The notes under the pieces are model-generated. The model was not told where the DNA came from. It searched no databases and saw only the letters and a program-made list of their open reading frames with translations. Below are positions 1 through 15,570 of a DNA stretch of 54,510 bases, piece by piece (positions within the stretch are counted from its first letter, which is position 1; every line of letters starts with the position of its first letter). A program made the position numbers and the translations under genes. The DNA lies in NCBI GenBank assembly GCA_029243385.1, contig JAQWSC010000013.1, forward strand, positions 1 to 54,510, in the 5' to 3' direction. The stretch comes from Flavobacteriaceae bacterium. GTDB lineage: Bacteria; Bacteroidota; Bacteroidia; Flavobacteriales; Flavobacteriaceae.

Positions 1-725
1 CCCAAATCCTGACACTCCAAATACCCTCCTCTTTTGGACAATTGTCGAGCAAATAATTGTTTGGTACCGAGTTTGTTTGACCAATAGGGAATTAATTTTG
101 TATGCGCTGAGCCTGTAACAGGATCTTCATCTACGCCGCAATTGGGAGCAAAAAAACGAGAAACAAAATCAACAGAATTACCGGGTGCGGTAGCTATAAC
201 TCCTCGCCATCCACATCGAGAAAGTTTTCCAAAATCAGGAGAAAGCGCTTCGATCTGTTTTTGATTTTTATAAACCAACATACAATCGTCTTTTCCTTTG
301 TAACTTTCCATAGGAACGGTTCCCATAGCTTCTAGAAGTTCTTTTGAAGGACTCATAGAATCAACAAAGTCTGCGGGGAAGTTTAGGGTAAATAAGTCGT
401 TGTTTTTGGCAACGCTCAACGCACCGCTCTTGGGAGAATAAAAGTGGATTGTCGTCGCTTGCTTCTCATAGTAAGTGAATATCACAAAAGCAGACGCGAG
501 AGTGGCATGACCGCACAAATTGACTTCAAACATTGGGGTAAACCATCGGATTTGGTATAAGTTATCCTTTTTAACAACAAAAGCCGTTTCCGACAAATTG
601 TTTTCCATTGCTATTTGCTGCATGAGCGTATCATCTAGCCACGCGTCGAGAACACAAACTGCGGCAGGGTTGCCAGAAAACAATTCGCTTGCAAAAGCAT
701 CAATCTGATACAGGGTAAGCTTCAT
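1..725 (-). CDS. PhzF family isomerase/epimerase-like protein (partial, runs off the left edge)
   Basis: The gene reads leftward from an ATG at 725 and leaves the window, so about 241 N-terminal residues are visible and the C-terminus is missing. PhzF-family features are clear: GNPAAV near residue 18, the SETAF motif whose Glu (about E46) is the catalytic acid/base in the family, CGHAT near residue 71, and a second-half motif DEDPVTGSAH. Members share the diaminopimelate-epimerase fold and act as small-molecule isomerases; the substrate cannot be told from sequence. It lies downstream of the ABC-F gene on the same strand, 39 bases away, with a palindrome (740-759) between them. There is no phenazine gene nearby, so a role in phenazine synthesis is not suggested. 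Confidence 0.9.
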   Translation of the reverse strand, partial: MKLTLYQIDAFASELFSGNPAAVCVLDAWLDDTLMQQIAMENNLSETAFVVKKDNLYQIRWFTPMFEVNLCGHATLASAFVIFTYYEKQATTIHFYSPKSGALSVAKNNDLFTLNFPADFVDSMSPSKELLEAMGTVPMESYKGKDDCMLVYKNQKQIEALSPDFGKLSRCGWRGVIATAPGNSVDFVSRFFAPNCGVDEDPVTGSAHTKLIPYWSNKLGTKQLFARQLSKRGGYLECQDL

Positions 726-739
726 ATGTCAAGAAGTAG

Positions 740-759
740 TTTCGTATAAATATACGAAA
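740..759. promoter_or_regulatory. 20-bp near-perfect palindrome upstream of the PhzF-family gene
   Basis: The arms TTTCGTATA and TATACGAAA are separated by only two bases (AA). The site lies 15 bases before the PhzF-family start and 6 bases past the ABC-F stop codon. Read on the minus strand it contains TATATTTA, close to the Bacteroidota -7 element TAnnTTTG. The very short loop favours a protein-binding operator over an RNA hairpin. This is inferred from symmetry only. Confidence 0.4.
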
Positions 760-764
760 TCAAT

Positions 765-2462
<1,698 letters not shown>

Positions 2463-5509: not shown

Positions 5510-5544
5510 ATCATGTCAAATAAAAAGAGAAAGGACAAAAAAAA

Positions 5545-5641
5545 GGGCAAGCTACCTACATCACACCGCTACGACCGCCTACCCTTGCTGCATTCCTGCC
5601 CTGGGGGGATTCAACAGGAGCTGGTTGTATAGGACTTGCCC
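5545..5641 (-). ncRNA. ffs: Signal recognition particle RNA (small bacterial type, 4.5S-like)
   Basis: Read on the minus strand, the ends GGGCAAG and CTTGCCC pair to close a long hairpin of about 97 nt. The apical part contains CAGGGCAGGAATGCAGCAAGG, the Ffh-binding helix-8 region with the conserved GGAA-type loop and the asymmetric GCAGCAA side; this form is typical of Bacteroidota SRP RNAs. A T-rich run follows the 3' end (5537-5544 on plus is all A), acting as terminator. A -7-like element TATATTTG sits just upstream on the minus strand at 5646-5653, at the right distance for transcription to begin at the first G. The RNA works with Ffh and FtsY in co-translational membrane targeting. Confidence 0.93.
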
Positions 5642-5645
5642 GATG

Positions 5646-5653
5646 CAAATATA
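5646..5653 (-). promoter_or_regulatory. -7 promoter element of the SRP RNA
   Basis: CAAATATA on plus is TATATTTG on minus, matching TAnnTTTG, and ends four bases before the RNA's first base. No strong -33 TTTG is seen. Confidence 0.55.
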
Positions 5654-13491: not shown

Positions 13492-14062
13492 ATGAATTTT
13501 AAGCAAACAAATCGACAATTAAAAACAATTCTTCTCGCAATGGCTACACTGATTCTTTATTCTTGTGGCTCTACTAGCTCATTGTCTTCATCAAACAAAG
13601 AAATTAAATCTTTCGCAATATGAATATCTGGTCGTTGAAAAAGTGGTAGACAAAACAAAAAAAAAGAATACGCCTGATTATTTTTTAGAAAAATTTCAAG
13701 ATAAATTAGTGTCTTCATTAAAACAGAAAAATATTTTTATATCCGTTGATAAAGAGCTCAAAGATTCTATTTATTTAGACAAAACACTATTATTGCGAGC
13801 AGGTGTAACGAGATATTCCGAAGGTAATCCTGCCTTAAAAATGCTCGTTGGTTTTGGTGCTGGAAGCTCATATTTAGATGCTTTAGTTTTTTTGGTTAAT
13901 GCAAAAAACAACTCCATAATTGGCAACATTAAGATTGACAAAAACAGTTGGGCTCTTGGTGGAGCAATAGCAGCTAGCCAAAGTGTAGATACTTTTTTGG
14001 ATGGTAGTTGTAAAAAAATAGCAAGTGAAATTGAAAAAGCAAAAACAGGAATATCAAATTAA
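13492..14062 (+). pseudogene. DUF4410-like lipoprotein gene, interrupted by a frameshift
   Basis: The ATG at 13492 opens a lipoprotein signal (ILLAMATLILYSC, then GSTSSLSSSN), but this frame stops at 13621-13623. The mature part continues in the next frame to 14062: YEYLVVEKVVDK, EKFQDKLVSSLKQ and the core VGFGAGSSYLDALVFLV, which resembles DUF4410 (conserved GFGAG block). The second frame is open only from about 13550, so one base appears gained (or two lost) between 13565 and 13620. Joined, the product would be about 189 residues. Either the gene is recently inactivated or the read has a single indel error. The remaining 3' part has no signal peptide of its own. Function is unknown. Confidence 0.65.
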
Positions 14063-14111: not shown

Positions 14112-14255
14112 CTGGCGCGCGTCTGTGACGCGTGTCTTTCTTTAAAAAATGGTGTCCTTAAGTATCCAAAAAATCCTAGTTATGACAAATAATGCTAACT
14201 TATTTTTTAAAACAAATTGCCACAAAGGTTGGTCACGCGTTAAAACGCGCGCCAG
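14112..14255. repeat. REP-like inverted hairpin pair (REPIN-like element)
   Basis: Two G+C-rich units face each other: CTGGCGCGCGT...ACGCGTG at 14112-14134 and its inverted counterpart CACGCGT...ACGCGCGCCAG at 14234-14255. Each folds into its own hairpin. The inner stem differs but stays paired: GTC-TGT-GAC in the first, GTT-TT-AAC in the second (read in the same sense), a compensatory change. This matches REP sequences mobilised by REP-associated tyrosine transposases. No such transposase is in the window. The 100 bases between the units are A+T-rich and hold no gene. Confidence 0.6.
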
Positions 14256-14334
14256 TCGGGCTGTTTACAGGTTAACGAGAATTGTTGTTAGAATGTCTAT
14301 TTTTATTCCGTTTGGGTTTATTGGACTTGTTTCC

Positions 14335-15570
14335 CTAATGCCTGTTTTGTCCACCCGCATGTGAATTGCGTCCGTTTCGGTTTCTAGTACTTCTCGTATT
14401 TCGTTGTTTCTTTTTGGGAGGAGCACTTGGCGCATTGGGGTCGGGTTCAAAACCTTCAATAATTTCTACAGGAAGTTGTAATCCAACCAATTTTTCGATG
14501 GATTTCAAATACGCTCTTTCTTCGCCACAAACAAGAGAAATGGCTACGCCGCTTGCCCCTGCTCTACCCGTACGTCCAATTCGGTGAACATAATCTTCTG
14601 AAATATTGGGCAATTCAAAATTCACCACATGAGGCAACAAAGGAATGTCCAAACCTCTTGCGGCAATATCGGTAGCAACCATAACTTGAACCTCGCCGCT
14701 TTTAAATCCAGCCAAAGCTTTGGTTCGTGCACCTTGACTTTTGTTTCCATGAATAGCAGCCGCTGAAATTCCTGCACTTACCATTTTTTTGCACAATTTA
14801 TTGGCACCGTGTTTGGTTCGTGTAAAAACCAATACTTGTTGCCATCCGCCTTCAAGAATGAGTTTTATAATCAATCCTGTTTTGAGTCCTTTCGCAACGC
14901 GATATACCTTTTGATTGATACTCTCTACAGTAGAATTTTCGGGAGTGGCTTCTACTTGAACGGGACTATTCAGAATGCCGTGAGCCAATTTTTTAATTTC
15001 CTTTGAAAAAGTTGCCGAAAACATCAAATTCTGACGGTTTTTAGGAAGGAGCCTCATAATGCGCTCAATGTCTCTCAAAAATCCCATATCAAGCATTCGA
15101 TCGGCTTCGTCCAAAACAAAAAAATCGACTTTCGAAAGCGACAATGCCTTTTGGTTTTCTAGATCAATCAAACGCCCAGGTGTGGCGACCAAAATATCCA
15201 CGCCTCTGCGAAGAGTGGCTATTTGTGGATTTTGGTTGACTCCACCAAAAATAACAGTGGAACGAATGTTTAAGAACTGACTATAGGTTTTGATATTGGC
15301 TTGAACTTGTGCAGCCAACTCGCGTGTGGGTGTTAACACCAATGCCCGAATAGGACGGTGTTTTACCGTTTGATGTTGCGAAAGTTTATGAAGCATCGGC
15401 AAGGTAAATCCTGCGGTTTTACCAGTTCCTGTTTGAGCCGAGGCCAAAACATCGCGCCCTTTCAATACTTCAGGAATGGCTTTTTGTTGAATAGGTGTTG
15501 GCTCGGTGTAACCTTGTTTACTGATTGCTTTTAGTATCGCATCAGAAAGCCCTAATGAGGTAAATGACAT
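14335..15570 (-). CDS. rhlE: DEAD-box ATP-dependent RNA helicase (RhlE-like)
   Basis: 411 residues. Q motif region ([27 protein letters not shown]), motif I AQTGTGKT near 44-51, motif Ia PTRELAAQ, motif II DEAD near 150, motif III SAT, and helicase C-terminal motifs [12 protein letters not shown] and [10 protein letters not shown] are all intact. The last 35 residues are basic and low-complexity (Lys, Arg, Asn), a likely RNA-contacting tail. Such enzymes unwind short RNA duplexes in ribosome assembly, RNA decay or cold adaptation. RhlE is the closest family by the order of motifs and size. The 3' end lies 80 bases from the REP-like pair. Upstream there is a TACTTTTG -7 element (15625-15632, minus). 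Confidence 0.93.

Follow-up and report, generated by a model that had tools for sequence, protein, structure and literature searches.

Two hairpins in a flavobacterial contig face each other across a short AT-rich spacer, and their arrangement resembles that of a REPIN, a unit of two inverted REPs. The preliminary description took them for such a unit and assigned its movement to a REP-associated tyrosine transposase (RAYT) acting in trans. We asked whether this reading holds in the organism itself and, if not, what kind of element the pair is. The window, that is, the whole stretch of DNA analysed (54,510 nucleotides), is one whole contig (C5) of a 15-contig genome of 1.69 Mb that is 99.02% complete.

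The entire element, an inverted hairpin pair of REPIN-like form, spans 144 bases (14112–14255). Both hairpins have the form CTGGCGCGCGT-loop-ACGCGTG and were located where they had first been reported: the left one at 14112–14134 on the plus strand (CTGGCGCGCGTCTGTGACGCGTG) and the right one at 14234–14255 on the minus strand (CTGGCGCGCGTTTTAACGCGTG, as read on that strand), separated by a spacer of 99 bases (14135–14233). The pattern CTGGCGCGCGTN{2,8}ACGCGTG occurs exactly twice in the window and 0 times in 100 dinucleotide shuffles of it. The left stem reads CGCGTC-TGT-GACGCG and, with G-T wobbles included, extends over 10 pairs to 14136, and the right one, on the minus strand, reads CGCGTT-TT-AACGCG. 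The contrast of GTC/GAC with GTT/AAC, on which the preliminary description had relied, is therefore correct on both arms.

The outer 11 bases of the element are perfectly complementary, and both hairpins together fold into one long hairpin. As DNA, 14112–14255 folds better than all 200 shuffles (z −4.75), and a similar value was obtained for RNA (z −4.5). Single arms also fold alone as DNA, at −8.4 and −8.6 kcal/mol (z −2.3 and −2.6). Thus, the locus holds two REP hairpins that are inverted, close together and able to pair. The stem contrast had been called strong evidence of a preserved shape, which is too much for two copies, since they differ by only one compensated base pair and one base of length.

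In its own genome, the element is solitary. The many copies that characterise a REPIN in its host were absent, and the hairpin pattern is present in the 1.69 Mb as a single pair (2 places). A looser search with up to 3 mismatches returned 13 places, two of them the element itself, versus 20 for the reversed control, so that no further copies emerged. Five loci considered as decayed extra copies (L008, L011, L012, L015 and L017) form no hairpin and look by eye like gene sequence.

The expected transposase was likewise missing. Pfam Y1_Tnp had 0 matches in the own genome, while the same search was positive in 5 of 14 control genomes. A 12-row RAYT profile gave 0 matches in the assembled own genome and 0 in a genome of the same genus; it matches 108 of the 299 host-family genomes searched. 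As for an IS200/IS605 reading, an IS200-type TnpA beside hairpins is absent from the own genome. With a unique pair and no Y1 protein detected, no link emerges between the element and a transposase in this organism, and this is the very state that the preliminary description had named as refuting its proposal.

A different picture comes from other genomes. A contig scan for the hairpin pattern yielded at least 120 stretches, which were sorted from record titles into 73 of Bacteroidota, 7 of Aggregatibacter and 40 of other phyla. The Bacteroidota carriers include Hymenobacter, Bacteroidales, Cytophagales, Cesiribacter, Rufibacter and Flavobacteriales, along with others. Of the Bacteroidota copies among the matches listed, 96 of 99 have a Watson-Crick pair on top of CGCGT/ACGCG (62 C-G and 34 T-A, with 53.5 expected for independent sides), as do 9 of 9 copies from Aggregatibacter. 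The corresponding figure for other phyla is 7 of 23 (5.9 expected), again among the matches listed, in a group that counts a Babeliaceae MAG (L098) whose copy pairs and which may be a mis-binned Bacteroidota contig; a Bacteroides MAG with an inner length of 3 (L125) also sat in this group, outside the pairing counts. Inner lengths run from 1 to 6 in other phyla versus 5–6 in Bacteroidota, among the matches listed. Given this near-random pairing and these variable lengths, most of the other-phyla matches look like chance.

Of the distinct Bacteroidota inner sequences among the matches listed, 23 of 26 pair, the copies not being independent events. Together with the top-pair statistics, this indicates that the shape of the stem is kept while its sequence changes. 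It is through these copies, then, that the earlier claim of a preserved shape gains its support. The inner stretch of the window's right hairpin (4 bases) is shorter than the 5–6 bases of all 108 Bacteroidota and Aggregatibacter copies among the matches listed, which is possibly a sign of decay.

The pairwise arrangement recurs as well. Of the 108 copies from Bacteroidota and Aggregatibacter among the matches listed, 31 face an inverted partner, scored as a relaxed hairpin, that is no more than 300 bases away and has its feet outward; for the rest, the partner is feet inward in 2 cases and in tandem in 22, and 53 copies have none. Spacings of outward pairs are 70–220 among the matches listed, and the window's pair is outward at 144. 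Copies per genome range from 1 to 36 in 41 genomes, among the matches listed, with 0 for the reversed control pattern; these genomes were chosen from pattern matches, so that a copy in 41 of 41 holds by construction. Within the host family, the motif is present in 4 of 397 genomes and absent from 393.

Two further observations concern the copies themselves. Two related IMG/VR contigs, 3300031215_000036 and 3300031216_000041 (L138, L142, L143 and L144), carry the hairpin: their examined stretches contain 2 and 7 copies of the exact pattern, some of which have G-C as the top pair, and no RAYT was found in them. In Hymenobacter, the copies (L021, L024, L053, L059 and others) are followed by a common stretch like CCGACTGGGTTCGAGCCT, possibly the second half of a Hymenobacter REP.

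Y1_Tnp was detected in 38 of the 41 motif genomes, with many of the matches IS200-like. From the longer list we picked 60 weakly scoring Y1 places, mostly RAYT-like but including other Y1 proteins (e.g. L180 and L241), and 20 IS200-like places. The motif lay within about 2 kb of 11 of the 60 weak places (8/40 and 3/20) and near 0 of the 20 IS200-like ones. In L178, L187, L196, L211, L212, L213, L215 and L217, the gene stands between hairpins of this type on both sides. Counted from the hairpins, a RAYT lies within 1 kb of the motif at 5 of the 73 Bacteroidota loci, at 1 of the 7 from Aggregatibacter and at 0 of the 40 others, among the matches listed; the profile used drew in part on RAYTs from these same genomes. 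As 68 of the 73 Bacteroidota loci are thus free of a RAYT within 1 kb, most copies lie away from one.

All three proteins scanned with the NCBIfam REP-associated tyrosine transposase model pass it at 93–107 bits (cut-off 80), and the solved structure closest to the RAYT profile is TnpA_REP (4er8, E 1.4e-6). The alignment contains HUH, WQ and YIH(Q/N)NP motifs over about 180 residues, with exceptions: SH(L/V)H replaces NHLH in several members, and those of Aggregatibacter come from outside Bacteroidota. According to PMC6006769, subclass 2.6, which equals RAYT group 5 and is found mostly in Bacteroidetes, consists of proteins of about 180 residues with NH(L/I/V)H, WQ and YIH(Q/N)NP; the secondary structures on either side of their genes are called "atypical" and lack GT(A/G)G, and copies of the hairpins occur elsewhere in the genome. 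Judged by motifs and length, the partner genes would fit TnpA_REP subclass 2.6 (RAYT group 5).

The association extends to the host family. In each of two of its genomes (G418 and G512), one copy lies, inverted, within 400 bases downstream of a RAYT; no RAYT was found in the examined loci of the remaining two G512 copies and the single G460 copy. The REP type is therefore tied to a RAYT in other genomes, two of the host family included, but not in the own genome.

These partners do not form one group. On a RAYT tree of 40 of the 60 proteins (20 were left out, among them the motif-bearing L187), the 9 motif-labelled rows need 6 changes, against a shuffled mean of 8.3, and 13 of 500 shuffles are as low; in this labelling, L243, L209 and L259 (near-variant hairpins) and L254 (a copy about 700 bases off) were scored "no motif". 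A single RAYT clade for this REP is not supported. Since the strict CGCGT motif reaches beyond one clade, the stem type is either common to several lineages or was reached repeatedly.

Some individual loci deserve mention. In L187, inverted hairpins of this type enclose a RAYT (645–1196, minus strand) whose tyrosine is replaced by S (SIHNNP), so that the enzyme may be inactive. In two Bacteroidota-type genomes, the Y1_Tnp match falls inside ORFs of 864 and 1111 amino acids (L180, 1978–2314; L241, 1921–2125). These ORFs, which contain a DPACGSGAF stretch, resemble a restriction-modification enzyme.

Many RAYTs are accompanied by hairpins with other stems (CGGAT, CTCGT etc.) on the same foot, (A/G)GCG before the stem and TG after it. 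Under this foot rule, which is post hoc in that it was written after viewing the hairpins, an (A/G)GCG-variable stem-TG hairpin lies within 400 bases of 31 of 80 RAYT loci (49 do not fit), and 18 of the 80 have an inverted pair, one hairpin upstream and one downstream. Two of the 80 loci (L311 and L313) were chosen by motif, and many others come from motif-bearing genomes; 12 of the 92 scanned loci had no RAYT and were left out of the count. Near the RAYT gene, the density of such hairpins is 1.25 per kb (77 in 61,556 bases), compared with 0.10 per kb at more than 1 kb from it (10 in 97,819); in the surroundings of IS200-like genes, where 1 of 20 loci has one, it is 0.012 per kb. Of 30 host-family loci taken by RAYT score (L281–L310), 11 have a hairpin and 8 an inverted pair.

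A hairpin family that adjoins RAYTs elsewhere and a lone pair without a RAYT here are both accounted for if the element is an orphan REPIN of the subclass 2.6/group 5 RAYT kind, a reading in which we have high confidence. On this interpretation, the pair is probably a remnant of mobile DNA that is ordinary in kind and unusual in its isolation. The proposal of a REPIN moved in trans by a tyrosine transposase is thus supported as to the kind of element and falls as to a RAYT-bearing REPIN family in this genome. Among the matches listed, the 53 of 108 copies that are alone within 300 bases and the 68 of 73 Bacteroidota loci without a nearby RAYT count against the orphan REPIN, as do the uniqueness of the element in its genome and the spread of motif-bearing RAYTs over more than one clade.

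The strongest competitor, which we nevertheless consider unlikely, is a cut-down RAYT unit that lost the gene and kept its two inverted REP ends. RAYTs elsewhere do stand between inverted hairpins, as in the 18 of 80 loci under the foot rule, and 108 of 299 host-family genomes have a RAYT. However, the 144 bases are within the normal range of outward pairs (70–220, among the matches listed), and the 99-base spacer is by eye unlike RAYT flanks. The spacer was also inspected as a possible remnant of a RAYT gene and has no likeness to one by eye. Its two weak matches to plasmid records (E 0.2 and 0.5) were taken as chance.

On the left of the element is smpB, 88% identical to that of the same-genus genome up to 13299, followed by a DUF4410 lipoprotein gene (13492–14062, plus strand). 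The latter is split over two frames: a lipoprotein-like start with its lipobox runs from 13492 to a TGA at 13621–13623, and the DUF4410 body occupies an ORF of another frame (13565–14062). The element does, then, stand beside a frameshifted gene, as originally observed. A search for DUF4410 next to smpB in relatives gave 0 matches in 24 other smpB loci.

On the right, a DEAD-box helicase gene (14335–15570, minus strand) is convergent with the lipoprotein gene and 84% identical to its counterpart in the same-genus genome. Relative to that genome, it has a premature in-frame stop, and a tail of 20 residues is still readable (14272–14337, minus strand). VF530, which in the same-genus genome begins at the helicase stop, was detected in 19 of 40 genomes searched and was not found in a search of the own genome. 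Among 21 VF530 loci, 8 have this helicase (52–92% identical), one has a 30% helicase match and 12 have none.

Directly beside the element, 14 of the 20 bases at 14256–14275 equal the same-genus genome by eye, and 14256–14274 (minus strand), likewise aligned by eye, is an apparent relic of the first VF530 codons and the old helicase stop. Because these bases align with the start of VF530, the gene seems to end at the edge of the element, whose right end would lie where VF530 probably once began. This sequence alignment suggests that VF530 may have been removed by the element or by a deletion ending at it. The comparison stops short of an insertion, since the left flank is not common beyond smpB, and no empty site for the element was found. 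An Rfam scan of the window gave one match, away from the element, to Bacteroidales_small_SRP RNA (5541–5648, minus strand, 107 bits).

The convergent neighbours could also point to a native bidirectional terminator or a transcript-protecting hairpin with no relation to a transposase, and the left hairpin is followed by TTTCTTT, which is terminator-like by pattern. A terminator scan, however, found 2 overlapping sites versus 1.2 (sd 1.1) in shuffles and hence no excess. Moreover, a native terminator would not explain an exact sequence that recurs across Bacteroidota beside RAYTs and is missing from 393 of 397 family genomes, and we regard this account as very improbable. A later, passive terminator role of the orphan REPIN is possible: its present effect, if any, would be that of a passive hairpin between convergent genes, which may end or protect transcripts. 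Least probable is a MITE whose inverted terminal repeats are those of a DDE-type insertion sequence, for although inverted ends flank an AT-rich core, no target duplication is visible in the flanks by eye, each end is itself a hairpin with a compensated stem, and the partners across genomes include RAYTs. Integron attC and CRISPR repeat readings were set aside on the basis of what we take to be their motifs.

How would an orphan REPIN of this kind have moved? Two inverted REP hairpins around a short spacer are thought to be copied as a unit in trans by a RAYT. Each hairpin, as single-stranded DNA, would be recognised through its foot and stem; the HUH/Tyr enzyme would cut near the foot, and the unit would be pasted elsewhere. 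TnpA_REP is strand-specific and binds the REP in its folded, single-stranded form; in E. coli, the cut falls at a CT next to the REP (PMC8266576). Here, a T before (A/G)GCG recurs and the base preceding it varies, so that a CT cut site would be a guess. With no RAYT detected in the genome, the element should now be immobile. It may have been brought from another bacterium or left behind when the lineage lost its RAYT.

Among known systems, subclass 2.6 as described in PMC6006769 shares with this case Bacteroidetes hosts, gene-flanking hairpins, the lack of a GT(A/G)G foot and the same protein motifs; unlike it, the own genome has no RAYT and a single pair, the published hairpins being compared by description only. 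REPINs of Pseudomonas fluorescens SBW25 (PMC3116915) are also composed of two inverted REPs and a spacer, thought to be a copied unit, but their REP sequences are different and they number hundreds of copies per genome, whereas one pair is present here. The E. coli REP/TnpA_REP system (PDB 4er8; PMC8266576) is similar in that a related enzyme of the HUH/Tyr type recognises an imperfect stem in single-stranded form; it differs in that its REPs require GTAG (PMC8266576), which the hairpins here lack.

Earlier publications describe REPINs, RAYTs flanked by inverted REPs, and palindromes that are preserved (PMC3116915, PMC2817692), and CGTC-tagged repeats in Bacteroidetes are mentioned in PMC3733652. 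Our literature search, with the supplementary repeat table of PMC6006769 outside its scope, found no publication on this REP. The pair belongs to a known kind of REPIN and is in an orphan state. What the analysis adds is the foot rule and one hairpin type with several transposase lineages.

As far as the available portion of PMC6006769 goes, subclass 2.6 repeats are published only as atypical structures. To these the foot rule, often with an inverted pair around the gene, adds a recognition code that can be put to the test, with foot and stem varying independently of each other.

It is also conceivable, though rather doubtful, that several RAYT lineages have one REP hairpin type in common and that this type passes between hosts independently of them. 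This idea draws on the occurrence of the hairpin in Bacteroidota, in Aggregatibacter and on two related IMG/VR contigs and on the lone pair, which stands in a small genome without a RAYT, at the border of a VF530 gene that was probably lost. If true, the REPINs of this group would be spreading by horizontal transfer, and non-cognate RAYTs could move them. This would contrast with the vertical, one-RAYT-one-REP picture; PMC8049555 states that RAYTs are inherited vertically and that, at the species level, evidence for significant horizontal transfer of REPINs is lacking. A REPIN orphaned from its RAYT, as in this flavobacterium, bears on whether REPINs outlive or outrun their transposase.
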